Source: Ectothiorhodospira lacustris | Lineage (GTDB): Bacteria; Pseudomonadota; Gammaproteobacteria; Ectothiorhodospirales; Ectothiorhodospiraceae | Reading direction: 5' to 3' | Length of the DNA: 64,000 nt | Assembly: GCF_022227845.1 (NCBI RefSeq) | Contig: NZ_JAJNQN010000004.1 | Span: 1-64,000 of the forward strand | In this document: positions 25,092 to 41,862 of the stretch, piece by piece | Numbering within the stretch: the first letter of the stretch is position 1 | Layout: each line of letters begins with the position of its first letter | Translations under genes and position numbers: made by a program | The notes under the pieces: model-generated | Database searches by the model: none | Told to the model about the DNA's origin: nothing | What the model saw: only the letters and a program-made list of their open reading frames with translations

Positions 25092-25232
25092 GGAAGGACC
25101 TCCAGGGCGGGTGGGGGACAAAGTGACGGTTGGGCCGTAAGAGACTCAAGATATTCAATGCGGGCATCACTCTGCAATGGGCAAGCAGGTGCACCCCGAT
25201 CGGATGCATGGCTTGAAGCGCTGATCGGGCAC

Positions 25233-26375: not shown

Positions 26376-26499
26376 GGTCCTGCTGTGCCTGTGGGCGCTG
26401 ACATGGAGAGGAAGGCCGATGGGGTGATCCATGGGCGGGTCGAGTGACAGCCCTGATCGGCAGTTTGTCGAGAGACGTACTTTATCTCAAAATCCGCAC

Positions 26500-26560
26500 T
26501 ATCATTGCGACTAAACAATATTTGTGATTAAACAGTTTAGTGTTGTAATTCTCACACCCG
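26500..26560 (+). promoter_or_regulatory. AT-rich divergent promoter region with inverted repeat
   Basis: The interval between the divergent MinD-like and HDOD genes has a markedly AT-rich core. It contains an inverted repeat ACTAAAC (26510-26516) / GTTTAGT (26535-26541) and a plausible sigma-70 pair on the plus strand: TTGTGA (26522-26527), 17 bases, GTAATT (26545-26550). The inverted repeat overlaps the promoter, as an operator would. Confidence 0.4.
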
Positions 26561-26647
26561 GCACGGCTGACCGGGGCTTTTCTGTTTGCCACCAGAGCGA
26601 GGGACAAGCGGTATGCATGTAACGACCCGCCGGGCCGTGGGGTAGTC

Positions 26648-28699
26648 ATGGCTCAGGAAAATCCACTGATGGAGACGATGCCGAGCCTGCCGCAGGTCCT
26701 GTTGAATATCCTGGATGCGATTCAGGATGAGCAGGCCGATCTGCGCAGCCTGGGCGAGATCATCCTGCAGGACCCGGCCATGACCGCACGCCTGATCGCG
26801 GTTGCCAACTCTGCTCACTACGCCAGGGCCGGAGGCTGTCGTTCTCTGGATCGCGCCATCATGGTCCTGGGGCAGCGCACGGTGAAAAACGTGGTCATGA
26901 CGGCGGCGATGAAGCAGATGTTTGACGAACTTGGCCGCCGTCATCGCCGCTTCCTCAAGGAATCCTGGCGCGGCACGCTGGTCACCGCCACCCTCGCCCA
27001 GGCCCTGGCCGCCCTGACCCGTTATCCTCGTCCGGAAGAGGCTTACCTGTGCGGCTTACTGGTCAACCTGGGACGCCTGGCCCGGCTGACCCTGGATGAG
27101 TCCCGTTATCCCGGACTTCTGGAGACGGCGGAGGACGATCAGGATCTGATCCGCCGGGAACAGGCCACCTACGGCAGCAGTCATTGCGAAGAGGCGGCCG
27201 GCCTGATGGCGCAGTGGGGGCTGAATCCCCTGCTGAGCGACGCCGTTCGCTATCATCTGGAACCGGCGCGGCAGGTGCGGGATGCCCATCACCTGGTGAA
27301 GCTGGTGAATCTGGCACATGCGCTGGGTGCGGGTGAGGCGATCACTGAGGGCGCAGCGGAGGCCGCAGACCTCCTGTTCGGACTCAACGAAGGCTTGAGC
27401 AGTGAATTGAGGGATAGCGTACAGGAAGATACCCGACGTCTGGCGGCGGCACTGGAGATTGAGCTTGATGATCGGGACCGGACGGCTTCCGACCGTCGCG
27501 CCGAGCAGCGGCTGGGTCAGTGTCTGGGTGATCTCGGTCAGCTGGATAGGGTCCAGGGAGAACTCAGCCAGGTTCGAGAGCTCAGACAATGTTGCCGGGC
27601 GGTGCGCAAGGTCCTGTTCATGACCCTGGGGGTGGAACACAGCCTGCTTTTTCTGGTCGATGCACGCCGCGAGCTCTTGAGTGCCTGGACCGATCCGGCG
27701 GATGATCCCGCCTTTGTGCTGCCCCTGGAGCGGGGCCGAAGTGCCGTCACCGACACCTGCCTGGATGGCCGCCTACAGGTGCTGTCCCGGTCCAAGGGCG
27801 ATGATCTTCCCGTGGTGGATCGTCAGCTCTTTGGGGTCTGCCATGCACGGCGGCTCTGGCTTCTACCTCTTGTCGGGACGGACCGTACCGTCGTCGGGGT
27901 GCTGGTGCTGGGGGTCGTCTCCGATACTCAGGCCGCCCAGCTGGAAGAACGTCGTGGTTTTGTGCGGGCCCTGACCGGAGAAATCGCCCGGGCGTTGGGC
28001 AATGGTCCCCCCCTTCCCGCGGGTGGCGACCCCGATTTGCAGCGGCGCATCAGTGAAGTCATCCATGAGGCGGGCAATCCCCTGACCATCATCCAGAATT
28101 ATCTGGCCATGCTGCGTATCAAGCTGGGAGAGACCTATGATGTGCAGCAGGATCTGGACCTGATCCGTGAGGAGATTGATCGGGTGGGGCGCATCCTGCT
28201 ACGGATGAAGGACGTGCCGGCCCTGGGGCAGGCGGATGACGTGCCCATGGATCAGCTGGTTCGGCAGGTGGCCGAAATCTTCAAGGGTTCCCTGTGCCGG
28301 ACTCGTGATGTCGGGCTTTCCCTGAGTCTGGCGGCGGGTGAGGCGGGCACTTTCGGTCACGCCGACCACCTGCGTCAGGTCCTGACCAATCTGCTGAAAA
28401 ATGCCATTGAGGCAGTGAACACGGGGGGTGAAATTCACGTTGCCACGAGCGCCCCGGTGAACCTCAACGGCTCTCGCTACGTGGAGTTGACGGTTCGGGA
28501 TAACGGCCCCGGTATCCCGGAGTCGATCCAGTCGCACCTTTTCTCTCCCGTGACCTCCACCAAGGGTGAAGGGCATTCCGGCCTGGGCCTGAGCATCACC
28601 CGGCGCCTGATCGACGAAATGGGCGGGAGTATCGTCTGTGCCAGTGGCGCACAGGGTACCCGCTTCCAGATTCTGTTTCCGCTCGATGGTCAGGGATGA
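26648..28699 (+). CDS. soluble HDOD-GAF-like histidine kinase
   Basis: A 683-residue cytoplasmic protein with no transmembrane segment. Residues ~5-205 form an HDOD domain (SLPQVLLNILDAI start, AMTARLIAVANSAHY and AIMVLGQRTVKNVV motifs). Residues ~300-450 look GAF-like. Residues ~460-680 form a kinase core: H-box ISEVIHEAGNPLTII, N box LTNLLKNAIEAV, DNGPGIP, and a GHSGLGLSI G2 box. The H-box has Ala-Gly-Asn-Pro after His-Glu, close to the NtrB/HPK4 style. It is the first gene of the signalling run and is followed 32 bases later by a REC-PAS-GGDEF-EAL regulator, its obvious partner. HDOD domains bind signals or act as scaffolds; the ligand is unknown. Confidence 0.88.
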   Translation: MAQENPLMETMPSLPQVLLNILDAIQDEQADLRSLGEIILQDPAMTARLIAVANSAHYARAGGCRSLDRAIMVLGQRTVKNVVMTAAMKQMFDELGRRHRRFLKESWRGTLVTATLAQALAALTRYPRPEEAYLCGLLVNLGRLARLTLDESRYPGLLETAEDDQDLIRREQATYGSSHCEEAAGLMAQWGLNPLLSDAVRYHLEPARQVRDAHHLVKLVNLAHALGAGEAITEGAAEAADLLFGLNEGLSSELRDSVQEDTRRLAAALEIELDDRDRTASDRRAEQRLGQCLGDLGQLDRVQGELSQVRELRQCCRAVRKVLFMTLGVEHSLLFLVDARRELLSAWTDPADDPAFVLPLERGRSAVTDTCLDGRLQVLSRSKGDDLPVVDRQLFGVCHARRLWLLPLVGTDRTVVGVLVLGVVSDTQAAQLEERRGFVRALTGEIARALGNGPPLPAGGDPDLQRRISEVIHEAGNPLTIIQNYLAMLRIKLGETYDVQQDLDLIREEIDRVGRILLRMKDVPALGQADDVPMDQLVRQVAEIFKGSLCRTRDVGLSLSLAAGEAGTFGHADHLRQVLTNLLKNAIEAVNTGGEIHVATSAPVNLNGSRYVELTVRDNGPGIPESIQSHLFSPVTSTKGEGHSGLGLSITRRLIDEMGGSIVCASGAQGTRFQILFPLDGQG

Positions 28700-28731
28700 T
28701 GCGACCATGAACACTTCCCGGACCCTGACTG

Positions 28732-30909
28732 ATGAACTCAGCATCACCTTTTCACGAACCGCAAGATCCCGCCTCCGCCCGCATTCTGCTGGTGGATGAT
28801 GACCTTCGCCTGTTGACGAGTCTGCGTTCACTGCTGGAGTTGCATGGTTTTCGGGCGGATACGGCGGGAGGCGGGCGTGAGGCCATGGACAAGCTGCGGG
28901 AACGCAGCTACGACCTGGTGCTGCTGGATCTGGCCATGCCCGAGGTGGGGGGGCGGGAGGTGCTGCGCTTCATGGCCGCCGAACAACTGCCCTGCATCAC
29001 GGTGGTGGTCAGTGCCAATAGTTCGATCCAGGACACGACGGGTGCCCTTCGGGATGGGGCCTACGATTACCTGAAAAAACCCTTTGTATCGGAAGAGCTG
29101 CTGGCCACCGTCAACAATGCCCTGCGTCGCAAGCATCTTGAGGAGATGAATCGTTGCATGCGGGGGCGCCTGGAACGCTCGGAACGCCTGCACCGACTGA
29201 TCGTGAACAATTCTCCCGATATCGTCTTCATTCTGGACGAGGCGGGACACTTCAGTTTCATCAACTCCCGGGTGACGGATCTGCTGGGTTATGCACGGGA
29301 AGTCCTGCTGGGGTGCCCGTTATTGTCGTTGGTGGACGAGGAAGACCAGGAAAAGGCACATTATTTTCTGGGTCAGGTGATGCGCCGACATCGGGATGTC
29401 CGTTCCGTGGAGTTGATTTTGCGTCCTTCCGGGCAGATACATAGCCGAAGACACTTCGAGGTGGCGGTCTGGCCCCAGCAGGAAGAGCTGGAGCATGGTC
29501 CCTTCGGTGATATGGCCCATTCCATCTACGGGACCGCCCGGGACATCACCGAGCGCAAGGAATCCGAGGCCTTCATCACTTTTCAGGCCTATCACGACCT
29601 GCTGACTCGCCTGCCTAATCGGGCCCTGTTCAAGGACCGGGTCAGCCTTGCCATTGCCCAGGCCCGGCGCAAAGGGGTGCGGCTGGCCGTCATGTTCATC
29701 GACCTCAACCGTTTCAAGGTCATCAATGATTCCCTGGGACATACTCTGGGGGACCGGCTGCTGCAGGCAGTGAGTCAGCGGCTACTGGCTTCCATCCGAC
29801 AGGGTGACACCCTGTCCCGTTTCGGCGGTGATGAATTCACTCTGTTGCTGCCGGAGGTCCAGGATGCCCACGCCGCCGGACAGGTGGCGCAGAAGATCAT
29901 CGACTGTCTGAGCCGTCCCTTCCAGATCGGTGGTCACGAGCTCTATGTGGGAGCCAGTATCGGTATCGCCCTGTATCCGGAGCAGGGGCAGGGGCTGGAT
30001 GAGCTGATCAAGCACGCCGACATCGCCATGTACCGGGAAAAGCGTTCCCGCAGGAACGGGTTCCGTGTCTTCGACCCCGAGATGGGCAGCGATGCCCAGC
30101 CTCTGCAGCTGGAACAGGATTTTCGGCGGGCGCTGGAGCGGCGGGAGTTTCAGATCCTCTATCAGCCCCAGGTGGATGCGGACCGAGGCCGCTTGGCCGG
30201 CGTGGAGGCGCTGGTCCGTTGGCCTCACCCTGTCCATGGTGTGCTCAGTCCTGCGGATTTCATTCCCTTGGCGGAAGAAACCCGTCTGATCATCGACCTG
30301 GATCATCTGACGCTGCGTTCGGCTCTGGAAGAGGTGGGGCGGCGTCATCTCGGGGGCTGCGCCGACATGAGACTGGCCGTGAATCTCTCGGCCATCGTGG
30401 TCGAGCATGACGATTTCGTTGCGCGGATCAGCGAGACGTTGTCGGAGACCCGTTTCCCGCCCCATCTGCTGGAGCTGGAAATCACCGAAAGCCTGCTGAT
30501 GAGCGATGCCCATGCCACGGTGGAGAAGCTCGCTGCCCTGAGTCGGCGGGGGATACGCATTGCCATTGACGATTTTGGGACGGGCTATTCGTCCCTGAGC
30601 TATCTGCAGAAACTGCCGGTGCATACCCTGAAGATCGATCGCAGTTTCACTCAGGGGATCAACGCCCGCGAAGATCAGTCCTGCCTGGTGAATGCCATCG
30701 TGTCCATGGCCAAGGGGCTGCAGATGGGGGTGGTTACAGAAGGGGTGGAGACCGAGGTGCAGATGGATTATTTACGCAGCCTGGGTTGTCCGATGATGCA
30801 GGGGTATCTGTTCGGGCGGCCGGCGCCGTTGTCGGACATTCTCGAACGACCGTTGCCGTTGGGTAATCGGGTAAATGGTCACCTTGATGAAGCTCCGCGA
30901 CAAGCCTAG
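28732..30909 (+). CDS. response regulator REC-PAS-GGDEF-EAL (c-di-GMP synthesis/degradation)
   Basis: A 725-residue regulator. REC domain (17-135): VDDD, DLVLLDLAMPE with the phospho-Asp, and KKPF Lys. PAS domain (~150-275) ending in GTARDITERKE. GGDEF (~285-445): MFIDLNRFKVINDSLGH, FGGDEF and an RQGD I-site five residues upstream. EAL (~465-710): [38 protein letters not shown] and QGYLFGRP, so all catalytic residues look present. Both activities are possible; which one dominates cannot be told from sequence. Phosphorylation by the HDOD kinase encoded just upstream is the likely switch. Confidence 0.92.
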   Translation: MNSASPFHEPQDPASARILLVDDDLRLLTSLRSLLELHGFRADTAGGGREAMDKLRERSYDLVLLDLAMPEVGGREVLRFMAAEQLPCITVVVSANSSIQDTTGALRDGAYDYLKKPFVSEELLATVNNALRRKHLEEMNRCMRGRLERSERLHRLIVNNSPDIVFILDEAGHFSFINSRVTDLLGYAREVLLGCPLLSLVDEEDQEKAHYFLGQVMRRHRDVRSVELILRPSGQIHSRRHFEVAVWPQQEELEHGPFGDMAHSIYGTARDITERKESEAFITFQAYHDLLTRLPNRALFKDRVSLAIAQARRKGVRLAVMFIDLNRFKVINDSLGHTLGDRLLQAVSQRLLASIRQGDTLSRFGGDEFTLLLPEVQDAHAAGQVAQKIIDCLSRPFQIGGHELYVGASIGIALYPEQGQGLDELIKHADIAMYREKRSRRNGFRVFDPEMGSDAQPLQLEQDFRRALERREFQILYQPQVDADRGRLAGVEALVRWPHPVHGVLSPADFIPLAEETRLIIDLDHLTLRSALEEVGRRHLGGCADMRLAVNLSAIVVEHDDFVARISETLSETRFPPHLLELEITESLLMSDAHATVEKLAALSRRGIRIAIDDFGTGYSSLSYLQKLPVHTLKIDRSFTQGINAREDQSCLVNAIVSMAKGLQMGVVTEGVETEVQMDYLRSLGCPMMQGYLFGRPAPLSDILERPLPLGNRVNGHLDEAPRQA

Positions 30910-31006
30910 GGGCGGTCTGTCAACGGCGTGTCACAGTGTCCGGTTAAAGTGACGCACCTATCGCGCCCCGGGATCGGGCGAATTCCCTCCGTTCCGGACC
31001 TGTACC

Positions 31007-32803
31007 GTGACTACCTGCCAGACCATAGAATGCATCCTTGCCCGCGGTGAACTGCATGCCCTGTTCCAGCCGGTCGTAGCCTTGCAGCAAGGCGGGATCA
31101 TGGGTTACGAAGGCCTGATCCGCGGTCCCTCCGACAGCCCCCTGCATGCCCCGCAGAAATTACTGGCCGAAGCAGCCCGCGCGGGGTGTCTGTTTGAACT
31201 GGATCTGCTCTGTCGTCGAGTGATTTTGGCGCGCTTTGCCGAGCTGGGGCTCCAGGGCCGCCTTTTCCTGAACGTCAATCCGGATGTGCTGGCGGATCGC
31301 AATGCGGTTCATGGCATGACGCTGCAGCTCTTGCAGGAGAACGGCATCGCCGCTGAGCAGGTGGTGATCGAGCTCACCGAGCAGCAGCCCATCCATGAGT
31401 ACGACATCATGCGCGAGGCGGTACGACATTACCGGGAAATGGGTTTCGCCATTGCGCTGGATGACTTGGGGGCGGGTTACAGCTGTCTGCGCCACTGGTC
31501 GGAGCTGCGGCCGGATTATGTGAAGATCGACATGCACTTTGTACAGAATGTGCACAATGATCCGGTCAAGCGCCATTTCCTGCATTCCATCCGGGAGATT
31601 GCCCACAGTCTGGGTACCCGTCTGATTGCCGAAGGCATTGAGACCGAAGCCGAGTACGAGGTGGTGCGCAGCCTGGAGATTCCCTATGGGCAGGGTTATC
31701 ACTTTGCCAGACCGGCCGCGAACCCGCCGCGGGAGCTGCGTTGTCTTGTTCGGCATCGGGGCGGTGAGATGTCCCGCTTGCGTCACCGGGGAGAGACGGT
31801 GGCTGTGCTGGCCCAGACCAATCCGACCACTTCCCCCGAACAGCCCCTGGGTACCACGGTCAGCCGCTTCCAGGCGGAGCCCGGCCTGCATTGTCTCCCG
31901 GTCATTCACGACGGCTGTCCCGTGGGCATCATCCGTCGCCATGACATCCTCGCGCTTTATTCACAACGGTTCAGTCGTGAACTGCACGACCGTAGTCCCA
32001 TCCGTTTCTTCATGAAACGGGACCCGCTGCTGGTTTATCAGGACCAGCCCCTGGAGCACTTGAGTGAAACCCTTACGGCTCGGGACACCATCGATGATGA
32101 GTTCATCATCATCGATGGGGATGGCCATTATGTGGGTGTCGGTCGACTGCTGGAGTTGCTGCGCCGGATCACCGCCCTGCAGGTGCGTTACGCACGCTAT
32201 GCCAACCCCCTGACTCAGCTTCCCGGCAGTGTCCCCGTCAATGAGCACGTGGATCGTCTGATCGAGTTGGGGGCGCCCTTCGTGGTGGCCTATTGTGATC
32301 TGGATAACTTCAAGCCCTTCAACGACTACTACGGTTACGCCCGGGGGGATCAGGTCATCTGTGCACTGGGAGAAATATTGCGGGAGGCACAGGAGGAGAC
32401 CGAGGATTTCCTGGGGCATGTGGGGGGGGATGATTTCATCCTGGTGCTTACCGGGACCGAGTGGCGCCGTCAGTGCAGGACGGTGCTGGATCGCTTTGCG
32501 GTTTCCGTCAGTGGTTTCTACGATGAACCGGAGCGGCGCATGGGGGGAATCCACACCCTGGACCGGCGGGGGGAGGAATGCTTTTTCCCCTTGCTGAGCC
32601 TGTCCATCGGAGCCGTGCAGGTGCAATCCGGCAGTTTCCGTTCTCATCTGGAGATCTCCCAGCGGGCTTCCGAAGTCAAATGCCGCGCCAAGGCGGAGGC
32701 AGGCAATGCCCTGTTCCTGGACAGACGGACCGCAAGGGACGGCACCTTGACTGGAATCTCCTCTGAGCCCACCTGCCTGCCAAGGCCGTTGCTGCAGCCA
32801 TGA
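31007..32803 (+). CDS. EAL-CBS-GGDDF protein, c-di-GMP phosphodiesterase with regulatory GGDEF
   Basis: A 598-residue soluble protein, GTG start. EAL domain first (~10-245): the signature is EGLIR instead of EALxR, but Glu, Leu and Arg are kept, and NVNP, ELTE, LDDLGAGYS, KIDM, AEGIE and QGYHFARP retain the metal and catalytic residues, so c-di-GMP hydrolysis is plausible. A CBS pair (~260-390) follows. A GGDEF domain (~405-580) has GGDDF in place of GG(D/E)EF and no RxxD five residues before it, so it may bind GTP as a regulatory domain rather than synthesise. It overlaps the phosphatase gene by four bases. The CBS pair is related to that of the downstream phosphatase. Confidence 0.88.
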   Translation: MTTCQTIECILARGELHALFQPVVALQQGGIMGYEGLIRGPSDSPLHAPQKLLAEAARAGCLFELDLLCRRVILARFAELGLQGRLFLNVNPDVLADRNAVHGMTLQLLQENGIAAEQVVIELTEQQPIHEYDIMREAVRHYREMGFAIALDDLGAGYSCLRHWSELRPDYVKIDMHFVQNVHNDPVKRHFLHSIREIAHSLGTRLIAEGIETEAEYEVVRSLEIPYGQGYHFARPAANPPRELRCLVRHRGGEMSRLRHRGETVAVLAQTNPTTSPEQPLGTTVSRFQAEPGLHCLPVIHDGCPVGIIRRHDILALYSQRFSRELHDRSPIRFFMKRDPLLVYQDQPLEHLSETLTARDTIDDEFIIIDGDGHYVGVGRLLELLRRITALQVRYARYANPLTQLPGSVPVNEHVDRLIELGAPFVVAYCDLDNFKPFNDYYGYARGDQVICALGEILREAQEETEDFLGHVGGDDFILVLTGTEWRRQCRTVLDRFAVSVSGFYDEPERRMGGIHTLDRRGEECFFPLLSLSIGAVQVQSGSFRSHLEISQRASEVKCRAKAEAGNALFLDRRTARDGTLTGISSEPTCLPRPLLQP

Positions 32804-34077
32804 CATCGTTATCCGCTCAGGTTCGGGATCGGGGTTATCTTCCCCTGACCCTCTCCAGTCACCCCGTCGGGTCTGCCCAGGATCTGCTGATTCACGTGGA
32901 CCCCGTGACTCCCGGCCATACCAACGAGCAGGTGGCCGAATTATTCAGCCTCAAGCGACAGGTGCAGAACCTGCCGGTGGTGCATGGCGAGCGCCCCATG
33001 GGGCTGATCAACCGCAGCCTGTTCCATAACATGATGGCCAAGCCTTATTACCCGGAACTCTACAGCCGCCAGAGTTGCATCGCCTTCATGGACAAGAATC
33101 CTCTGGTAGTGGAAACGGATACACGTATCGACACCCTCATGGCGTTGGCGGTGCAGACCGGAGAGAAGGTGTTTGCGGACGGCTTCATCGTCGTGGATGG
33201 CGGTTGTTACCGCGGGGTGGGGCAGGTCTTGGACCTCATGCGTGCGATGAACGAACTCCAGGCCCGCCAGCACCGCCAGCTCGTTGACAGTATCGACTAT
33301 GCCAGCACGATCCAGTCCTCCCTGCTCAAGTCTTCCCGTCAGGCCCTGAACCGGAGCTTGCCGGATCGACACTGGGTGTTATGGCAGCCCAGAGATACGG
33401 TGGGTGGGGACATCTTCCATTGCCTCACCCTGGAGGATGGTTTCCTGGTGTCCGTGTTCGACTGCACCGGTCACGGGGTCCCCGGCGCCTTTATGACGCT
33501 GATCGCCGGTGCCGCCCTGGAACGGGCCATCGCCCGCCATGGCCATGATGATCCGGCGCTGCTGCTGGCCTCCATGAACCGGTACATCAAGCAGACCCTT
33601 AGCCAGCACGACATTGCCCAGCGGAGCCAGGCGTTGCCCGATAATTCCGATGACGGCCTGGAGGGCGTCATCCTGCGGGGCTATCCCAGCGCCGGATATG
33701 TCTTGCATACGGGCGCCCGGATGCCTCTGATCCATGTCCGAACGGAAGGGGAGGGGCAGGCTGAGATCATCCGTTCGGAGCGTTGTGGTGTGGGTTACAT
33801 GGCGACGCCGTCGGGGCAGGTGTGGCGGAATCAGCGACTGGAGATGGCTGCCGGGCAGCGACTCTATCTGGCGAGCGACGGAGTGATCGACCAGATCGGC
33901 GGCCCCCGTCGGATCGCCTTTGGCAAGAAGCGGCTCCTTCAGTGCCTGCTGGACACCCGCACGCTGGACATGGCCGGTCAGAAGAATGCTTTCATGCAAT
34001 GTTTCATTGACTATCGTGGCCGCCAGGCACCGCGGGATGATCTCACCCTGCTGGCTCTGCAGTGGCCTGATGAGTGA
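32800..34077 (+). CDS. CBS-PP2C (SpoIIE-type) Ser/Thr phosphatase, SiaA-like
   Basis: A 425-residue soluble protein. Residues ~25-155 form a CBS pair (QNLPVVHGERPMGLI, FMDKNPLVVET, DGFIVVDGGCYRGVG). Residues ~180-420 form a PPM/SpoIIE phosphatase: the metal-binding motifs DTVGGDIF, VFDCTGHGVPGAFMT, LASDGVIDQ and PRDDLTLL are intact. The phosphatase domain and the three genes that follow match the SiaA-SiaB-SiaC-SiaD order of Pseudomonas, in which SiaA dephosphorylates SiaC. Unlike SiaA it has no transmembrane or HAMP region; the CBS pair replaces the sensor. It would thus respond to a cytoplasmic nucleotide-type signal. Confidence 0.87.
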   Translation: MTSLSAQVRDRGYLPLTLSSHPVGSAQDLLIHVDPVTPGHTNEQVAELFSLKRQVQNLPVVHGERPMGLINRSLFHNMMAKPYYPELYSRQSCIAFMDKNPLVVETDTRIDTLMALAVQTGEKVFADGFIVVDGGCYRGVGQVLDLMRAMNELQARQHRQLVDSIDYASTIQSSLLKSSRQALNRSLPDRHWVLWQPRDTVGGDIFHCLTLEDGFLVSVFDCTGHGVPGAFMTLIAGAALERAIARHGHDDPALLLASMNRYIKQTLSQHDIAQRSQALPDNSDDGLEGVILRGYPSAGYVLHTGARMPLIHVRTEGEGQAEIIRSERCGVGYMATPSGQVWRNQRLEMAAGQRLYLASDGVIDQIGGPRRIAFGKKRLLQCLLDTRTLDMAGQKNAFMQCFIDYRGRQAPRDDLTLLALQWPDE

Positions 34078-34088
34078 CGGAGACGCCC

Positions 34089-34649
34089 ATGAATCAGTAT
34101 CTCTCACCCTGTCATGATCATGATGAGTGCATCATCCGCAACCAAGGGCTGGTGTTTTACTACGTGGGCTATTTTTCCCAGAATATCATCAATGCCATCG
34201 GAGACGCGGTGCGCTTGAGACTGGAATGTTCCGAGACACCGGGCAGTCTGCGTCGCAAGATCTTTTCCATCTTTATCGAAATGGCTCAGAACATCGTTCA
34301 TTACTCCAGCGATCAGCTCACCCGAGGGGCCGATGAGGACCATGTGATGCGAGCCGGTTCGGTGTGCATCACCCAGGAGGAAGGGCGCTTCATGATCATT
34401 TGCAAGAATCCGGTGACTCCCGAGTGGGCGCAGCAACTGAGACAGGACCTGGAGGCCTTGCGTGTCATGTCCATGGATCAGATCAGGCAGTCTTATCGGG
34501 AGCAGTTGCGCAAGGCCGCCCCGGAGCACAGCAAGGGAGCGGGACTGGGTCTTCTCACCATCGCCCGGGATAGTAGCGGCCCCATCGAATTCGCGTTGGA
34601 GCCCGACTCCGCCGGAGACGTGATGTTTACCCTCAAGGCCACCCTCTAG
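34089..34649 (+). CDS. siaB: SiaB-like protein kinase (DUF6272)
   Basis: About 186 residues from the ATG at 34089. The pattern IIRNQGLVFYYVGYFSQNIINAI, the FIEMAQNIVHYS helix and the GAGLGLLTIAR segment match SiaB/DUF6272 proteins, which have a GHKL-like ATPase fold and phosphorylate SiaC in the antisigma-like partner switch. The N-rich ENAQNIVHYS-type box and the GLG loop are the ATP-site elements. An in-frame ATG at 34074 overlaps the phosphatase stop; GGAGACGCCC before 34089 makes the second ATG the better start. Gene order and tight spacing support the module assignment. Confidence 0.82.
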   Translation: MNQYLSPCHDHDECIIRNQGLVFYYVGYFSQNIINAIGDAVRLRLECSETPGSLRRKIFSIFIEMAQNIVHYSSDQLTRGADEDHVMRAGSVCITQEEGRFMIICKNPVTPEWAQQLRQDLEALRVMSMDQIRQSYREQLRKAAPEHSKGAGLGLLTIARDSSGPIEFALEPDSAGDVMFTLKATL

Positions 34650-34668
34650 GGCACGCAGGAGCTTCAAC

Positions 34669-35061
34669 ATGGATCACAGACTCTACATTCCTGCTTCCAG
34701 CAATACCCCCGAGGTGGATTTTGATTTTGCCGCCCGTCGCCTGAGTCTTCGCGGGGAGTCCTACCCCGAAAGTGCGGTGGGTTTCTATCACGAGATCCTG
34801 CTGCGTACGAAGGCGTTTCTGGCCACGCTGGAAAATGACTCGGTGCGTTTGGTCATCGAACTCAGATATTTCAACAGTTCCAGCACCAAGATGCTGTTCA
34901 ATCTGGTGGATGAACTCAATGTCGCCGCGGAGGCCGGTAACCAAGTGGCTCTGGACTGGTACCACGACGCCGAGGATGACACCATGCTGGAGTTTGGCCA
35001 AGAGCTGGCGGAGGATTTTCCGGAGATTGATTTCCGGACGCTGGCCATCGAATCTCCATGA
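34669..35061 (+). CDS. siaC: SiaC-like regulatory phosphoprotein (DUF1987)
   Basis: A 130-residue protein of DUF1987. The start (LYIPASSNTPEVDFDF), the LRGESYPE element and the YFNSSSTKML segment are family hallmarks. In Pseudomonas SiaC the Ser/Thr in this segment is the phosphorylation site; several candidate Ser/Thr are present here. Unphosphorylated SiaC binds and activates the cyclase SiaD in the known system. CAGGAGC lies just upstream. The gene sits 19 bases after siaB and 28 bases before siaD. Confidence 0.88.
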   Translation: MDHRLYIPASSNTPEVDFDFAARRLSLRGESYPESAVGFYHEILLRTKAFLATLENDSVRLVIELRYFNSSSTKMLFNLVDELNVAAEAGNQVALDWYHDAEDDTMLEFGQELAEDFPEIDFRTLAIESP

Positions 35062-35089
35062 GCAACGATACTCCGAGCGGGTACGGCTC

Positions 35090-35812
35090 ATGAAATCTCC
35101 AGACCTTTTCGATGCAGAGATACGGGTTCTGGAAAGTGCCCGTCAAGCGATGGAAAGCCGGGATGTCGAAGCCCATCGCGCCGCTCTGGACGGGCTGATT
35201 CGGGAATTTGATCGGGTCATCCGGGACATGCGACGTCTTATCAATCATGCCGATCGCACCGAGCGGGAACTGAACCGAGCGAATCGGCGCCTGACGGAGC
35301 TGACTCGCAGCCTGGCCTACCGGAACCGGCATGACGGCCTCACGGGCCTGCTCAACCGGGAAACCCTCATCGACGAGGCGGAGGCCCTGCTGGCGGTGCA
35401 GGGAATCGCCTTGATTCTCCTGGATATCGATCATTTCAAGCAGGTCAATGACCGCTATGGGCACCCGGTGGGTGACCGGATTCTGAAGGACGTGGCCGGT
35501 GCCATGCGCATCCAGGCCCCGGAGAATGGTCTGTGTGGTCGATTGGGGGGAGAAGAGTTTGCCGTGATTTTGCCTGGGCAGATCGGCGGCAAGGCACTGG
35601 GATGTGCCGGCTGTATTGCTGATGCCATTCGTGCCGTACGTCGGGAAGGTCATCCCGGACTTCGGGTGACGGCTTCCTTCGGCATCGCTTTTGCCGCAGC
35701 CGGAACCTCTTTTGACCGGCTCTACATCTGCGCCGATGATGCCCTCTACCGGGCCAAGCATAGCGGCCGGGATCGTATCGAGGTGGTGGGGGACTGCATC
35801 ACCCAGAGCTGA
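35090..35812 (+). CDS. siaD: SiaD-like diguanylate cyclase
   Basis: A 240-residue soluble cyclase. Residues ~1-75 form a helical/coiled-coil region (the SiaC-binding part in the known system). The GGDEF domain follows: DGLTGLLNRE, LLDIDHFKQVNDRYGHPVGD and the RLGGEEF active site. The position of the I-site holds PENG, so product inhibition through an RxxD site is not expected. The frame is open much further upstream (to 34772) but that stretch is the shadow of siaC; the ATG at 35090 gives the expected length. As the last gene of the run, it is the likely output of the HDOD/CBS/Sia cascade. Confidence 0.88.
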   Translation: MKSPDLFDAEIRVLESARQAMESRDVEAHRAALDGLIREFDRVIRDMRRLINHADRTERELNRANRRLTELTRSLAYRNRHDGLTGLLNRETLIDEAEALLAVQGIALILLDIDHFKQVNDRYGHPVGDRILKDVAGAMRIQAPENGLCGRLGGEEFAVILPGQIGGKALGCAGCIADAIRAVRREGHPGLRVTASFGIAFAAAGTSFDRLYICADDALYRAKHSGRDRIEVVGDCITQS

Positions 35813-35979
35813 TCGATACCCTGGGGTGTCTTTGCTTCAAGTAAAGATTCATACAGGTATGGGGTTGCTTTAATTTCATGGCGTCTTCCTGGAATGAGTG
35901 GCAGGGCGAGATTGGCCAAGGAAGTGAGCCATAGTGACCATGATTCTCCTTGCGTGGTTTTGGTACACCTTCCTCCTTG

Positions 35980-36014
35980 AAAAAGGGGATGCGGCCCGAG
36001 CCGGCCGCATCCCC
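35980..36014 (-). terminator. Rho-independent terminator after alkaline phosphatase gene
   Basis: A 12-bp perfect stem, GGGGATGCGGCC (35985-35996) and GGCCGCATCCCC (36003-36014), with a six-base loop, followed on the minus strand by T residues (plus-strand A-run 35980-35984). It ends the phosphatase transcript 29 bases past the stop. The 35813-35979 stretch before it shows no gene. Confidence 0.85.
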
Positions 36015-36042
36015 TGGGGTCTGTCCGTGATCGAGCCCGGCA

Positions 36043-37548
36043 TCAGGGCGTGGTGAGCTCCAAGTTCAGAGCGCGGGAGATCACCCGGTGCACGGCCGAG
36101 TTATCGATGTAGCGGCCGTCGCTGAAACCGATGATGTCCCGCAGTCCTGCGTCCGTCCCGATGACCAGATCGTAGAAATGTTCGGCACCGGCACCGTGGG
36201 CGAACATCAGGGTGTTTTCGTTGGTGTGGGTGCCGTAATGCCAGCGCACGCCGGGGAGGACGCCGGCGCCGTTGTTCTGGATGGGCTGGAAGGGGATGGT
36301 GTCGGAGTCCGGCCCCATGGGCATGGCGTTGCCATGGTCGGTGAGCACGATGACCAGAGTCTCATCCCAACTGCTGTTCTGCTCCACCCACTCCACCACG
36401 GCGGTCACGGAACGGTTGAAATCCACCTGCTCCTCGATGATGCGCGCAGTATCGTTGGCATGGGCGGCCCAGTCCACGGCGCCGCCTTCGATCATCACGA
36501 AGAAGCCGTCAGGATCCTGGCTCAGGTAGTTCAGTGCACCACGGGTCATGGTTTCCAGGGAAGGAACGTTAAGGTTGAAGGCCACGCCGCTGGGGTTGGC
36601 GGCGTCGGTGCCCATGACGGCCTCGGAGCGGTTGTACTGCAGGGTGTCATAGACTCGGGGGATCCCGATCAGACGCTCGGCCGTCAAGGACAGGGTGCCA
36701 GCGGCCAGGGCCTCGAAGTCCGACTTGTCCTCAACCAGCTGCCAGGGGCGAGCACCACCGGCGGTGCTGTTGCGTAGGCCTTCCCAGGTGGTGCGGGGGA
36801 TGAAGCCACCTCCGGTGCCCACCTCATTGGCATAACGGGGTTCGGATCTGGGCTGTCCGTTGGAGTCATACTCCGGGTGGCCACCACCCATGATCAGGTC
36901 CAGATGATCCCGTTGCACCATGAAGGTGGCGATCTCACCGTAATTGTTGCGACTGATGTTCTGGGCGCCGAAGGCCGCCGGGGTGGCGTGGCTGAAGGGC
37001 ACGCTGCTCAGCACGCCGGTGGCCTTGCCCTGCTCACGAATTTCCTGGGTGATGAAGGTCAGGGGCTGGGCAAAGTCATCGTAGTCGATAGCATTGTTGT
37101 AGGTCTTTTGGCCGGTGGCCAGTACGGTGCCGGCGGCGGCGGAGTCGGTGTAATCCTCCTTGAGATATTCGTAACCGGCGAAGTGGTTGGGTCGTCCGCC
37201 GGTGGTGGAATTCACCGGGGTGGTGTCCCAGGCCTGCTCCGGATCGTAGGTCACCTGGGGAATGCCGGTGAAGGTGGGGGTGTTGGAAGTGTTCAGAGGC
37301 GGGGTGATCATGCCGAGCTTGACGTCGAACCGGTCATAGGGCTGTTTGCCTTTCTCCCCGTATTCCCAGTAGCTGGCCATGTCCCAGGTTCCCCAGCTGG
37401 CGCCGTCGGTGATCATGAGGATCACATTTTTGGCCTGAGGACTCTGTTCGGCTTGATTGTTGCCGGAGTCATTGTCGTCGGAGCAGCCATGCAGCGATAA
37501 CGCCGCCGTCAGCACGGCTAAGGAAAGCGCACTTTTACGAAAGTTCAT
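36043..37548 (-). CDS. alkaline phosphatase, predicted lipoprotein
   Basis: A 501-residue PhoA-superfamily phosphomonoesterase. The N-terminus has a lipobox (LSLHGC, Cys 22), so the enzyme is probably lipid-anchored in the envelope, followed by an Asp/Asn-rich tether. Metal site and nucleophile motifs are visible: MITDGASWGTWD, the DSAAAGTVLATGQ nucleophile Ser region, MIEGGAVDWAAHAND and VIVLTDHGNAMP, and a TH near the end. It releases phosphate from organic esters. The 5' leader carries a 9-bp inverted repeat (37555-37583) immediately before the start codon; I see no convincing Pho box. Confidence 0.92.
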   Translation of the reverse strand: MNFRKSALSLAVLTAALSLHGCSDDNDSGNNQAEQSPQAKNVILMITDGASWGTWDMASYWEYGEKGKQPYDRFDVKLGMITPPLNTSNTPTFTGIPQVTYDPEQAWDTTPVNSTTGGRPNHFAGYEYLKEDYTDSAAAGTVLATGQKTYNNAIDYDDFAQPLTFITQEIREQGKATGVLSSVPFSHATPAAFGAQNISRNNYGEIATFMVQRDHLDLIMGGGHPEYDSNGQPRSEPRYANEVGTGGGFIPRTTWEGLRNSTAGGARPWQLVEDKSDFEALAAGTLSLTAERLIGIPRVYDTLQYNRSEAVMGTDAANPSGVAFNLNVPSLETMTRGALNYLSQDPDGFFVMIEGGAVDWAAHANDTARIIEEQVDFNRSVTAVVEWVEQNSSWDETLVIVLTDHGNAMPMGPDSDTIPFQPIQNNGAGVLPGVRWHYGTHTNENTLMFAHGAGAEHFYDLVIGTDAGLRDIIGFSDGRYIDNSAVHRVISRALNLELTTP

Positions 37549-37554
37549 ACCTTG

Positions 37555-37583
37555 CCTCGTGATTTGGTGAAAAGATCACGAGG
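37555..37583 (-). promoter_or_regulatory. inverted repeat in leader of alkaline phosphatase gene
   Basis: CCTCGTGAT (37555-37563) and ATCACGAGG (37575-37583) form a perfect 9-bp inverted repeat with 11 bases between, ending six bases upstream of the ATG on the minus strand. In the mRNA the proximal arm (…ACGAGG) lies beside the AAGG ribosome site, so it could be a translational hairpin; as DNA it could be a repressor operator. Confidence 0.5.
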
Positions 37584-37666
37584 AATCTAAAGTGTCTATG
37601 TTTAGCGGGGATTGGCCGTGCGTGAATATTGTGTAAAAGCCGCTCGCTGCCGCCGTTTCCGGCTAT

Positions 37667-39739
37667 TCAGAAACCGAGTCTGATTTGCCCGTAGAGGCCG
37701 CGACGGGTCCGTGCCGGCTGGAAGGTGGGTGTCAGGGAATAATATTCCGTGCGCTCGGAATCCAGCAGGTTCTGGGCCACCAGGGCCAGCTCTATCTTCT
37801 GCTGCGGCCGCCAGGCCAACCTTATATCCATCGTGGTATAAGCATCCAGGGGAGCAAGAAAGCGTTGGTAGCGTTGACCCACATATCTTATCCACAGATC
37901 CAGGTCCATCTGATGATTGAGGTTCCACGAGCTGCGCAAAGACGCGATGTGCCTGGGGATGAAGCTGGAAAAAAGGCGTTCACCGCCTGTAAATTCACCG
38001 ACGTCGTTGTAGCTGTAGGCGAGCTGAAAACGTAGTTTCTCACCGGCTCGCCAGTCGCCCGCCAACTCAATGCCCGTCACGGTGAGTTCACCGGTGTTGA
38101 TGAACTGTGTGGGTGAGATCAGGTACGCCTCGTTTTCTCCCATCAAAAGGGTGTCGGGATCGGTCTCCGTCGTGGCTGATCTGAGATTGTCATAGCGATG
38201 CACGAAGGCAGTCAGATCCAGGTAAAGATTAGGCGAGGGATGGCCCCGATAACCTGCCTCGAAGGCTGTCAGGCGCTCGGAGCCGTATGCATCATGGCCG
38301 CGTACTTCGCCCTGTATGGGTAGGTGCGCCAGAGATTCATCCACGGGTCGGTCGAGTCTGTATTGGCCTGGACGGGCCACGGTCAGGATGTAGTCCGCCG
38401 TGCGTTCGCCTCGGGAGGGGATACGTTTGGCGCGCGACAGGGACGTCCAGAGGCTGTGCCGGGGCGTCATGTTCCACAGCATGCGGATCGTCGGCTGGAA
38501 TTCCGTGCTTGTGTAACTGTTGTGGTCCAGGCGCCCACCCAAGGTCAGGCGCAGTCCCTGATTCAGCAGGACTTCATTCTGGGCAAACAGGCTGGCGATG
38601 TAGAGGGTTTCCCCGGGCCGGTCAAAGCGGGTGGTCAGGCCGCCGGAGATGCTGTCTTCGTACCAGCGATAGCCAGCCCCCCAGGTGATGGTGTGCCGAT
38701 CGGGAACATCCAGGCGCTGTTGGAACTCCAGGTCCACGATATGCTGCTGCTGGTCCGCGAGCATGACCGCTTCCAGATCGGAGTAACTCCAGGAGGCGTT
38801 GAACCTGATCTCTGACTGTTCCGAGGTCTGTCGGGTCAGGCCGGCCTGCACGTCCATGCCGGAGAAACGGTCGGTGATGGTTTCCACCCGCCGGTAAGTG
38901 GGTGGGAAGAGGGGGTCTCGGACGACACCGATATCGTCCGAGTCGACTCGAAACAGATTCCCCGCCACTATCCATCGGCCGAACGGCTCATCTCCATCCA
39001 GGCGGAAACCGGCCGAAACGTGATCCGCTTTGTCATGGTGATCATCACCGGATTCCGTCAGGGAGGCACGACCTTCACGGTTTTGCAGATAAACGCTGAA
39101 ACTGCGGTCTTCTCCCCAGTGCCCCCCCTGTCTCAACAGGGCGAACGGACCGGTGTCACCCCCGTACCCGGCGCTGATCAGGGTGCCGTGAATGGCATGG
39201 GAGGAGCGGGTGATGATGTTGATGACCCCATTGACGGCATTCACGCCCCAGGTCGCGCCCCCGGGGCCCCGGATGACTTCGATGCGGTCGATGTTTTCAA
39301 GGGGAATCTGCAGGGTGTTCCAGAGTACGCCGGAAAAGCTCGGGCTATAGGCGTTGCGGCCATCCACCAGCACCATGAGCTTGTTGGACAGGTATTCGGT
39401 GTGGCTGCGAATGGAGATGGCCCAGCGATCCTCGCTGATGCGGGCAACGTCCACCCCCGGGGCCAGGCGGAGTACCTCCGGCAGGGATCGCGCCCCCGAA
39501 CGCCGGATATCCTCGGCAGTAATGACATGCACGGCAGCGGCGACATCGGACAGACGCTGTGATCGACGACTGACTGTAATCACTTCCTGCTGTAGGAGAT
39601 CCTCCAGGGAGAGTTCGAGGAAATGCTCGATGTCTGCCGCCTGGACCAAGGATAGGGTGAAGCCGAGCACCATCAGGACGAGTACACAGGAGAGGCTTTG
39701 CATTGAGTGTGTCAGTCTGCCCGTGATGTGCGCACTCAT
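37667..39739 (-). CDS. TonB-dependent outer-membrane receptor
   Basis: About 690 residues. After a signal peptide (ending ...LVQAAD) comes a TonB-box/plug start with VITVSRRSQRLSDVAAAVHVITAEDIRRSGA, the plug motifs LRLAPGVDVARI, LVDGRNAYSPSFSGVLW and IEVIRGPGGATWGVNAVNGVINIITR, then a 22-strand barrel ending in aromatic RLGF. The frame is open 47 codons further up, but the ATG at 39737-39739 gives a normal signal peptide. The plug resembles receptors co-encoded with YfiR/CHASE8 kinases. It is the last gene of that operon; its ligand is unknown. Confidence 0.88.
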   Translation of the reverse strand: MSAHITGRLTHSMQSLSCVLVLMVLGFTLSLVQAADIEHFLELSLEDLLQQEVITVSRRSQRLSDVAAAVHVITAEDIRRSGARSLPEVLRLAPGVDVARISEDRWAISIRSHTEYLSNKLMVLVDGRNAYSPSFSGVLWNTLQIPLENIDRIEVIRGPGGATWGVNAVNGVINIITRSSHAIHGTLISAGYGGDTGPFALLRQGGHWGEDRSFSVYLQNREGRASLTESGDDHHDKADHVSAGFRLDGDEPFGRWIVAGNLFRVDSDDIGVVRDPLFPPTYRRVETITDRFSGMDVQAGLTRQTSEQSEIRFNASWSYSDLEAVMLADQQQHIVDLEFQQRLDVPDRHTITWGAGYRWYEDSISGGLTTRFDRPGETLYIASLFAQNEVLLNQGLRLTLGGRLDHNSYTSTEFQPTIRMLWNMTPRHSLWTSLSRAKRIPSRGERTADYILTVARPGQYRLDRPVDESLAHLPIQGEVRGHDAYGSERLTAFEAGYRGHPSPNLYLDLTAFVHRYDNLRSATTETDPDTLLMGENEAYLISPTQFINTGELTVTGIELAGDWRAGEKLRFQLAYSYNDVGEFTGGERLFSSFIPRHIASLRSSWNLNHQMDLDLWIRYVGQRYQRFLAPLDAYTTMDIRLAWRPQQKIELALVAQNLLDSERTEYYSLTPTFQPARTRRGLYGQIRLGF

Positions 39740-39777
39740 GATGGGGGTCCTGTTGGAAGGCGCATGCCGCAGAATGA

Positions 39778-41862
39778 TCAGGATAGCGTATGGGTATCCC
39801 AGTTCCGGCCAAACAGTGCGGGAATTTGGTCGGGTGCAATCGGCTGACTGAAGTAATAACCCTGCAGGGTATGGCAGCACTGTCGGCTCAGCATTTGAGC
39901 CTGTTCCATGGTTTCAACGCCTTCGGCGGTGACTGTGAAACCCAGGCTTTCCCCCAGAGAAATAATGGCCCTGATGATCGCCAGGCTCTCGTTATCATGG
40001 GGCAAGCCGCTGACGAAGCTGCGATCCACCTTGAGATTATGCAAGGGCAGTCGCTTGAGATAACTCATTGAGGAATAGCCGGTGCCGAAATCATCCAGGG
40101 AAAATTTCAGGCCCAGTTCATGCAATTCGCGCAGGGTCTGCAGCGTTGTAACGCGCTCATCCATCAAGGTGCTTTCCGTGATTTCCAGTTCCAGATAACC
40201 GGCCTTGAGCCCCGTGTCCCGGAGAATATTCCGGACGGTACTGATCAATGTGCCATTTCTGAACTGAACCGGTGAAAGATTCACTGCGACCTGCAGGGGA
40301 TAGCCTTGGTCGTGCCAGCTTGCGGCCTCCCGGCAGGCCGTGCGTAACACCCATTCGCCGATGGGAATGATCAGCCCGTTGTCTTCCGCCAAGGGAATGA
40401 ATTCCATGGGAGAGACCACTCCCTGCCGAGGATGTGCCCAGCGGATCAGGGCCTCAACGGACAGGATGCGCCCTGTGTTCAGATCCAGTTGCGGTTGATA
40501 AACGAGAAAAAACTCTTCCGCTTCCAGGGCGCGGCGCAGGTCCGATTCCATGTTCATGCGTCGCATGGCCTGATGGGTGAGCGACGGGCTGTAAAATTGC
40601 GTATTGTTTCGTCCCAGGGACTTGGCGTGGTACATGGCTGTGTCCGCGTGCTTGATCAGGGTATCGGCATCTTTGCCGTCATCCGGATACACGGCGATGC
40701 CGATGCTGGCGGTCAGTACCATTTCCCGTCCCGCAAGAAAAAACGGCCGGCGCAGGAGTTCCTGTATTCGGTGGGCCACCATCAGGGCATCTTCGGGGTG
40801 GGCCATATCCGGAATGATCACGGTAAATTCATCACCGCCCAGGCGGGCCAGATTGATTCCCCGGGATTCAAACGCCGGACGGGACACCGTGTCAGTGGGA
40901 CGCACTCCCAGGCGTAGACGCTGGGAGGCATGCTGCAGCAGCATGTCGCCGGTGGCATGGCCCAAGGTATCGTTGATGTGTTTGAAACCATCCAGGTCCA
41001 GGAACAACACCCCCAGCTGACAGTGACTGTTTCCGGCCCGGCGGATCTCTCCCTCCAGGCGTTCTACGAGATGCCGGCGGTTTGCCAACCCTGTCAGAGT
41101 GTCGAAGTAGGCCAGCCGATATATTTCGGAGTCGGCTTCCTTGCGGGCCGTGATGTCCCGGACCAGGCAGAGCGTTTCCTGGTCGTCGATGATCACGATC
41201 CGGGTTTCAAAGTAGCGAAGGGACCGATCCTGGTCCTGCAGGGTGTACTCGACGTACTGCATACCGCCTTCCTCACGCGCCTTTTTGACCGCGGCCAGAT
41301 AGGACTGGAAAACCTCGTCGGGCAGGTTTTGTTGCAGATGTGTACCGGGTGGGGGGTGGGAATGGTCGTTCTGGCCGGCCAGCCTGTCCAGCACCATGCC
41401 GTCATCGGTAAGCCGGAACAGGGTGTCCGGTAGTGCGCTCAGGATGGCGGCGTTACGGGCATTGGCCCGGTGCAGGTCCAGGCGTGTCAGGTGAGCGCGC
41501 CACAGGTACTTCACCCGGTGTCCGATGAGGTCCCAGTGGATGGGCTTGGAAATGAAGTCCGTTGCGCCCACCTCGAAAGCCCGGGTGATGGAGCCTACAT
41601 CGTCCATGCCGGTGACCATGACGATGGGCAACTCATCGCCGGCCTGCTGACGCAGGCGTTGACAGACCTCGAAGCCATCCAGGTCGGGCATGTCCACATC
41701 CAGCAGTACCATGTGGCAGTGCGCCTGTTCAAACGCGGCCAGTGTCTGCTCGCCATTCTGCGCGATGCAGGTGGTGAAGCCGGCCTTTTCCAGGGCGGTC
41801 GTCATCAGCATGAGCGTGGTGACGTCGTCGTCAGCCAGCAGAATCCGGACCCTGTCGCTCAT
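39778..41862 (-). CDS. response regulator REC-GGDEF-EAL
   Basis: A 694-residue regulator. REC (1-125): [14 protein letters not shown] with phospho-Asp, SKPI Lys. A PAS-like segment (~140-245) leads to the GGDEF domain (~255-420): [16 protein letters not shown] and LGGDEF. A ten-residue insertion (around [15 protein letters not shown]) replaces the normal I-site spacing, so feedback inhibition is doubtful. EAL (~440-690): [48 protein letters not shown], all catalytic residues kept. It overlaps the hybrid-kinase gene by four bases and is its probable output. Confidence 0.92.

Follow-up and report, generated by a model that had tools for sequence, protein, structure and literature searches.

A soluble CBS-type relative of the Sia partner switch next to a predicted c-di-GMP phosphodiesterase gene in Ectothiorhodospira lacustris

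Results

Organization of the five-gene locus

The present analysis concerns a 64,000-nucleotide stretch of Ectothiorhodospira lacustris (positions 1 to 64,000 of contig NZ_JAJNQN010000004.1, assembly GCF_022227845.1), hereafter called the window, and a locus within it that resembles the SiaABCD partner switch of Pseudomonas aeruginosa. The latter system is encoded by PA0172-PA0169. In it, a kinase phosphorylates SiaC, a phosphatase reverses this reaction and free SiaC activates a cyclase producing cyclic dimeric guanosine monophosphate (c-di-GMP) (PMC7278518; PMC8457831; PMC7647112). c-di-GMP is a biofilm signal, and the present five genes are predicted to raise and lower it from a single locus. 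The window locus consists of five genes on the forward strand that encode: (i) an EAL-CBS-CBS-GGDDF protein of 598 aa, a predicted c-di-GMP phosphodiesterase (31007–32803), (ii) a CBS-CBS-PP2C phosphatase similar to SiaA (32800–34077), (iii) a SiaB-family kinase of 186 aa (DUF6272; 34089–34649), (iv) a SiaC-family phosphoprotein of 130 aa (34669–35061), and (v) a SiaD-like GGEEF diguanylate cyclase of 240 aa, counted from an in-frame ATG (35090–35812). The original prediction, made from the sequence alone, had proposed these five genes, the four sia-type ones in the Pseudomonas order A-B-C-D, and the open reading frames (ORFs) and the Pfam and NCBIfam matches agree with it. This gene set is not due to chance, since six other Ectothiorhodospira genomes retain it and since the CBS-PP2C phosphatase, SiaB and SiaC are all present in the 80 other loci examined (the best 80 of the 405 confirmed relatives found by scanning species genomes with the window phosphatase, and thus CBS-type by selection).

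The stop codon of the EAL gene and the start codon of the phosphatase gene share the four bases ATGA (32800–32803), as had been predicted. It is the only clean 4-nt overlap among the junctions of the five genes and it suggests translational coupling of these two genes. The same overlap is found in another Ectothiorhodospira genome (L049), and the ORFs listed in a third one (L050) overlap by more. The ORF of the SiaB-like gene opens at 34074 and its start is probably the ATG located behind a GGAG at 34089. A simple hydropathy scan predicted no transmembrane (TM) segment in any of the five proteins, and none of them has a Pfam match to HAMP.

The EAL-CBS-GGDDF protein and the CBS phosphatase

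The first protein matches the Pfam EAL (176 bits), GGDEF (57 bits) and CBS (43 bits) domains, encoded at about 31007–31726 for EAL, 31790–32200 for the CBS pair and 32204–32731 for GGDDF, with the GGDDF motif itself at 32423–32437. Ten residues of the EAL domain (E35, N89, E122, E125, D152, D153, K173, E209, E212 and Q229), which are taken as catalytic, are invariant in the 23 aligned homologues. The c-di-GMP breakdown attributed to this protein by the original prediction is a putative activity, deduced from this conservation. The GGDDF motif and five other residues of the GTP site are likewise invariant (23/23). The AlphaFold2 model has a mean predicted local distance difference test score (pLDDT) of 81.9 and a predicted template modeling score of 0.46, so that the relative placement of the domains is unreliable.

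The second protein has SpoIIE as its Pfam match (73 bits) and SiaA as its top NCBIfam match. Its CBS pair (approximately residues 25–150) is followed by a long helix and by the PP2C/SpoIIE domain (approximately residues 186–422). By Pfam, the CBS part of this protein is weak, with only one repeat scoring 21.7 bits for a cut-off of 24, and 34 of the 37 aligned homologues have a CBS match at E ≤ 0.01. The AlphaFold2 model (37 sequences, mean pLDDT 87.5) displays two CBS-like units, then the long helix and PP2C. The PP2C part superimposes on the structure of P. aeruginosa SiaA-PP2C (6k4e) with a Z score of 34.0 and a root-mean-square deviation of 1.8 over 246 aligned residues. The matches seen in the structure search are PP2C matches and barely probe the other parts of the protein; the CBS fold therefore rests on Pfam, on weak profile matches to the PDB and on the secondary structure of the model. 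The acidic residues D199, D204, D221, D360, D413 and D414 of the phosphatase are kept in 37/37 homologues. Taken together, Pfam, the homologues, the model and hydropathy bear out that this phosphatase is soluble and that it has a CBS pair and no membrane or HAMP sensor. RsbU and SpoIIE structures are among its fold matches. The SpoIIE/RsbU-RsbW-RsbV switches also combine a PP2C phosphatase, a kinase and a switch protein phosphorylated on Ser; their target is a sigma factor, whereas that of the window system would be a cyclase, judging from its homology with SiaD.

The CBS modules of these two proteins are homologous (127 aligned columns, 31% identity, probability 98%, E = 2.1e-13) and the two models agree in the succession of their helices and strands. 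The signal is probably a cytoplasmic ligand. The adenosine ribose-phosphate motif of CBS domains is G-h-h-[T/S]-x-x-[D/N]. In CBS1 of the phosphatase, it is absent: the T/S position is N in 31/37 homologues and S in 6/37, and no homologue (0/37) has D/N at the last position. CBS2 is mixed (T/S in 12/37, D in 25/37). In the EAL-CBS-GGDDF protein, CBS1 has T in 2/23 homologues, with D kept in the window, and CBS2 has T/S in 13/23 and D in 10/23. The nucleotide-like signal put forward by the original prediction is thus not borne out: a nucleotide is unproven as the signal of these putative sensors, and a ligand may bind through residues other than this motif. A CBS-type Sia operon of the Halothiobacillus type has, at a distance of about 4.6 kb, a gene for a histidine kinase whose N-terminal stretch is related to the CBS module of the EAL-CBS-GGDDF protein (L074, 2904–4286).

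The kinase, the phosphoprotein and the cyclase

The third protein scores 135 bits with DUF6272 and 207 bits with the SiaB_fam_kinase family (cut-off 85), and its alignment with P. aeruginosa SiaB (6kko) shows that the EMxQNxxHY motif is kept. The fourth scores 127 bits with Pfam SiaC (cut-off 24.5); its Ser70 (codon 34876–34878) falls in the column of Thr68 of P. aeruginosa SiaC in the alignment with 6k4f and 6kko. The fifth matches Pfam GGDEF (117 bits) and its top NCBIfam match is SiaD. All four Sia-like proteins score well below the NCBIfam equivalog cut-offs (203/700, 96/225, 81/150 and 139/290 bits for SiaA, SiaB, SiaC and SiaD, respectively).

The cyclase gene carries a motif resembling the SiaC-docking site (ADR, 35249–35257), PENG in place of the RxxD feedback motif (35519–35530) and GGEEF (35546–35560). 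Across 69 aligned cyclases from CBS-type loci and 36 from non-CBS loci, D138, both Glu of GGEEF and the stalk Asp equivalent to D83 of P. aeruginosa SiaD are kept throughout. D83 is a residue of the contact with SiaC (PMC8457831). The stretch from this Asp to GGDEF is seven residues longer than that of P. aeruginosa in 68 of the 69 CBS cyclases. The inhibitory site of P. aeruginosa SiaD includes R170, Y172, D173 and R201, and the R201A substitution abolished feedback inhibition (PMC8457831). The R125 position could not be placed, the alignment column being Ser in P. aeruginosa.

Prevalence of the CBS form

The original prediction was to be refuted if known Sia loci routinely showed the CBS form; the genomes do show it routinely. 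SiaC was detected in 48 genomes of a sample of 299 from the order Burkholderiales (the order of Herbaspirillum), and an unbiased SiaC search retrieved the same 48 genomes. Their phosphatases are of the CBS form in 31 genomes and of the non-CBS form (PP2C alone) in 21, four genomes having both. One of these 21 (G462, L209) gives a doubtful partial match to the CBS query, from residue 51 and without any CBS match. The phosphatase was examined in 16 of the 21 PP2C-only genomes; two TM segments are predicted in 15 of them and none in the last (L192). Across the class, SiaC is found in 12/370 genomes. The CBS form is therefore a regular form wherever Sia occurs and not a novelty of a single genome.

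No TM segment was predicted by hydropathy in any of the phosphatases of the 80 CBS loci. No SiaD-like match stands beside siaC in 11/80 of these loci; the contig ends inside the gene in one of them (L106) and continues in the other 10. Seven of the loci examined (L115, L116, L117, L128, L134, L136 and L144) are CBS-type A-B-C operons without SiaD-like match or adjacent EAL match; siaC is followed in L128 by a gene encoding a chemotaxis-receptor signaling domain and is abutted tail to tail in L144 by an HDOD-domain gene. Another locus (L180, G238:C1) has four PP2C-domain genes of differing size, one encoding 1915 aa, around a single SiaB-SiaC pair, possibly several sensors feeding one switch. 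A SiaC scan of viral contigs gave four stretches matching a pattern, none of which encodes a relative.

Phylogeny of the two forms

A tree based on SiaB and SiaC from 127 loci (84 CBS and 43 non-CBS rows) separates the two forms by one branch, with a Shimodaira-Hasegawa-like approximate likelihood ratio test value of 100 and only one change of form; it was built with a quick method that gave long-branch warnings, and the phosphosite column was left out. As the CBS rows were selected by their match to a CBS query, forms intermediate between the two may have been missed. One of the 43 non-CBS rows is that of P. aeruginosa, with labels set by hand, and the others come from SiaC-family searches or from the Burkholderiales sample. 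L068–L073 (copies of the genomes of L045–L050) and L179 (devoid of SiaB) were omitted.

At the column of P. aeruginosa Thr68, all 84 CBS rows have Ser and the non-CBS rows have Thr (n = 26) or Ser (n = 17). RxxD is found in none of the 71 CBS cyclases with data, compared to 30 of 38 non-CBS ones (P. aeruginosa row included). CBS-type Sia thus appears as a distinct branch with consistent sequence changes: the CBS sensor, the Ser site and the absence of RxxD. Two of these changes were considered as specialities of this branch and rejected: Ser is also found in 17/43 non-CBS rows, and eight non-CBS rows of gene order B-C-D-A are devoid of RxxD too. These last loci (L051, L052, L054–L057, L188 and L189, from genus g3 of the same family) combine this gene order with a phosphatase of about 550–560 aa having two TM segments, a Ser site and no RxxD.

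Sia loci and EAL genes in Ectothiorhodospira

Among 10 Ectothiorhodospira genomes, seven carry the CBS form, seven carry the membrane form and two are devoid of SiaC. A SiaD-like gene follows siaC in all seven CBS-type genomes. The EAL-CBS-GGDDF gene (i) overlaps or heads the CBS operon in three of them (the window, L049 and L050), (ii) adjoins it in tail-to-tail orientation in two (L045 and L046), and (iii) lies 2.4–2.6 kb downstream on the opposite strand in two (L047 and L048). It is thus within 2.6 kb of the operon in 7/7 genomes, and this proximity, retained despite rearrangement, is the best indication that the two are functionally linked.

The genome of the window holds two SiaC genes, the second one inside a membrane-type siaABCD (L038, 3892–12693 of G000:C1). 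This second locus has the same four components as the window locus and is also preceded by an EAL gene. It differs from it by its SiaA (a SpoIIE phosphatase carrying HAMP and two predicted TM segments, with a Cache match below threshold), by the Thr site of its SiaC, by the RRYD motif of its cyclase and by its EAL neighbor. It is flanked by two EAL genes, encoding a NIT-GGDEF-EAL protein upstream (gap of about 20 nt) and a GGDEF-EAL protein downstream (4-nt overlap with siaD).

EAL genes beside Sia operons in other genomes

An EAL gene borders the operon in 33 of the 80 CBS loci; there are 34 such genes in all, whereas the frequency of EAL genes in the same flanks predicts 3.8 (with slots of 2 kb a side; a Poisson figure that is not corrected for kinship). 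On the tree, such adjacency concerns 34/84 CBS rows and 5/43 non-CBS rows, with 13 changes. In many Burkholderiales, a GGDEF-EAL gene follows siaD; it encodes a DUF3369-GGDEF-EAL protein in both cases examined by Pfam (L079 and L084). A PAS-GAF-GGDEF-EAL gene follows a membrane-type siaD in L201. The original prediction had tied the EAL gene to the switch through its four-base overlap with the phosphatase gene. The genome survey upholds the tie as proximity in Ectothiorhodospira but finds the EAL-first five-gene order to be rare: it was detected in three of the seven CBS-type Ectothiorhodospira genomes (the window, L049 and L050), and in L100 with a 641-nt gap. In L137, EAL-CBS-GGDDF comes first and siaD is absent. 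In L088 (11208–13136) and L108 (11277–13184), EAL-CBS-GGDDF directly follows siaC at the usual place of siaD and there is no siaD; the SiaC target may possibly have changed in these two loci.

A homologue of EAL-CBS-GGDDF matching over both the EAL and GGDDF parts is present in 107 of the 299 Burkholderiales genomes (two further matches cover EAL alone). It is found in 24 of the 32 genomes with a CBS-type phosphatase match, the doubtful G462 being counted as CBS in this test only, and in 83 of the 267 others (Fisher p = 2e-6, not corrected for kinship). It is also enriched in genomes having only the non-CBS form (11/16). Genomes with a CBS-type locus were searched for 50 of the 80 loci, and 39 of these 50 have a full-length match.

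Discussion

The soluble CBS switch is a common relative of the membrane-bound Sia system of Pseudomonas, and the exact five-gene order of the window is rare. The likeness to P. aeruginosa SiaABCD lies in the A-B-C-D order, the PP2C fold, the SiaB and SiaC sequences and a GGEEF cyclase that keeps the Asp contacting SiaC. However, the window phosphatase is soluble and has a CBS pair whereas that of P. aeruginosa is membrane-bound and has HAMP (PMC7647112). The window locus also differs by the Ser instead of Thr in SiaC, by the lack of RxxD, by the EAL gene at its head and by its scores well below all four equivalog cut-offs. The CBS-type loci of Burkholderiales, Halothiobacillus and others likewise have CBS-PP2C, SiaB, SiaC with Ser and, where it is present, a cyclase without RxxD, but their EAL partner is absent or is a GGDEF-EAL protein encoded downstream instead of an EAL-CBS-GGDDF protein encoded upstream. 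The membrane phosphatase of the Pseudomonas Sia switch links it to stress caused by detergents and to membrane stress (PMC7278518; PMC12834913); in the soluble branch, this cyclase switch would instead obey a signal from inside the cell. We did not find any description of a CBS-type Sia phosphatase, or of a CBS/PP2C partner switch associated with c-di-GMP, in the literature searched, which left most subscription journals outside its scope. CBS domains are mentioned as energy sensors in a review on c-di-GMP sensing, the available part of which makes no link with Sia (PMC8846402).

On balance, we slightly favor the view that the five genes encode a cytoplasmic partner switch of the Sia type to which a phosphodiesterase is joined. 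By analogy with P. aeruginosa, the SiaB-like kinase would phosphorylate SiaC on Ser70 and the CBS-PP2C phosphatase would strip this phosphate. In its unphosphorylated state, SiaC would then bind to the cyclase stalk and thereby activate c-di-GMP synthesis by this SiaD-like enzyme. The EAL-CBS-GGDDF phosphodiesterase would form the opposing arm and limit the cyclase output, a role that we propose because the cyclase is devoid of the RxxD feedback site. A single cytoplasmic ligand would raise synthesis while lowering breakdown, or the reverse; most likely the phosphodiesterase and the phosphatase respond to the same ligand, although its common identity and the sign of its effect are inferred. 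The domains, the gene order, the overlap, the catalytic residues, the Asp of the docking motif, the missing RxxD, the homologous CBS modules and the recurrent linkage, on which this view draws, are all read from the sequences. A more far-reaching version is that the widespread CBS-type branch has moved product limitation from the feedback site of the cyclase to an outside phosphodiesterase under the same ligand and that, in Ectothiorhodospira, the phosphodiesterase and the phosphatase join through their CBS modules into a reciprocal assembly; we consider it distinctly improbable.

Several points weigh against a switch joined to the phosphodiesterase. Every phosphotransfer, binding and enzymatic step of the switch is drawn from analogy, and the adenosine motifs of the CBS modules are mostly degraded. 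Two docking positions of the cyclase depart from P. aeruginosa: that of S82 is Ser in 61/69 CBS cyclases and Ala in 7/69, including the window, and that of Q86 is Glu in 68/69, again including the window. As for the inhibitory site, the Arg equivalent to R201 is kept in 14/69 CBS cyclases compared to 35/36 non-CBS ones and is Cys in the window; since it persists in these 14 cyclases, the loss of feedback is not certain across the whole CBS branch. Furthermore, all 69 CBS cyclases with data lack RxxD, whether an EAL gene is adjacent (n = 30) or not (n = 39). An association between missing RxxD and an adjacent EAL gene was therefore dropped, there being no contrast inside the CBS branch, and these data do not bear on the idea that a phosphodiesterase replaces feedback. 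Lastly, EAL-CBS-GGDDF lies in only 10 of the 80 CBS neighborhoods. Most of its homologues are unlinked and match across the same CBS region. The idea that the common CBS type is a speciality of this operon was therefore rejected, since these unlinked homologues match full length.

This last set of observations also favors another explanation, namely that the four sia-type genes form one switch and that the EAL-CBS-GGDDF gene is an independent neighbor, perhaps co-transcribed but not functionally joined. The window genome (3.28 Mb) has 31 EAL matches, six of them in the contig of the window, which is thus rich in EAL genes, and another EAL gene lies just upstream of the locus. In addition, the EAL gene and the operon differ in direction in four of the seven CBS-type Ectothiorhodospira genomes, and no EAL gene is adjacent to the operon in 47 of the 80 CBS loci. 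Nevertheless, a mere neighbor accounts poorly for the same EAL subtype remaining within 2.6 kb in 7/7 genomes despite rearrangement, for the ATGA overlap, for EAL genes being adjacent about nine times as often as the flanks would predict and for the co-occurrence in Burkholderiales (24/32, one being doubtful, versus 83/267), and we hold this explanation to be unlikely.

The EAL-CBS-GGDDF protein could also be a trigger enzyme or receptor that detects c-di-GMP, as well as GTP via GGDDF, and controls the phosphatase through direct contact, thereby providing feedback and not bulk breakdown. The invariance of GGDDF and of the five other GTP-site residues looks as if they were kept for binding, the homologous CBS modules could co-assemble, and the start and stop codons of the two genes overlap. 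Moreover, Bordetella DdpB (BB2957), which has the same domains and GGDDF, is described as being of unknown activity (PMC12805831). It has ESL at the EAL motif, and the available part of that report mentions no link with sia, unlike the window protein, which is encoded next to sia genes. However, the latter retains each of the ten EAL residues checked, which suits an active enzyme, and the contact is hypothetical; this possibility seems decidedly unlikely to us. Finally, that SiaC targets EAL-CBS-GGDDF itself in part of the CBS branch, the SiaD-like cyclase being one target among several, is suggested by L088 and L108, by the 10/80 loci without SiaD-like match although the contig continues and by the chemotaxis-receptor-domain gene of L128, but it is very unlikely given the SiaD-like gene following siaC in all seven CBS-type Ectothiorhodospira genomes, the docking Asp in 69/69 CBS cyclases and the position of L088 and L108, far from the window on the tree.

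The CBS branch, with its consistent sequence changes and its repeated recruitment of phosphodiesterases, offers a ready test of how c-di-GMP is limited without RxxD. Furthermore, genomes carrying both Sia forms lend themselves naturally to studying how two such switches are kept separate.

Neighboring genes

Two genes lie directly upstream of the locus on the same strand (26648–30909): a gene encoding an HDOD histidine kinase and, 32 nt behind it, one encoding a REC-PAS-GGDEF-EAL protein (28732–30909; ORF and Pfam), which is separated from the EAL-CBS-GGDDF gene by 97 nt. Both are shared with L049 and L050 and are absent from the stretches of L045–L048. Counting them, the window may carry an operon of seven genes. 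The scan for promoters and terminators gave one promoter-like and four terminator-like sites, compared to means of 2.1 and 3.4 in shuffled sequences, and therefore no operon limit is drawn from it. Rfam gave no match over positions 25000–42000. On the minus strand, the ORF of a TonB receptor (37667–39880), as listed, shares about 100 nt with the GGDEF-EAL-type ORF upstream of it (39778–41862); the receptor gene probably starts further downstream.

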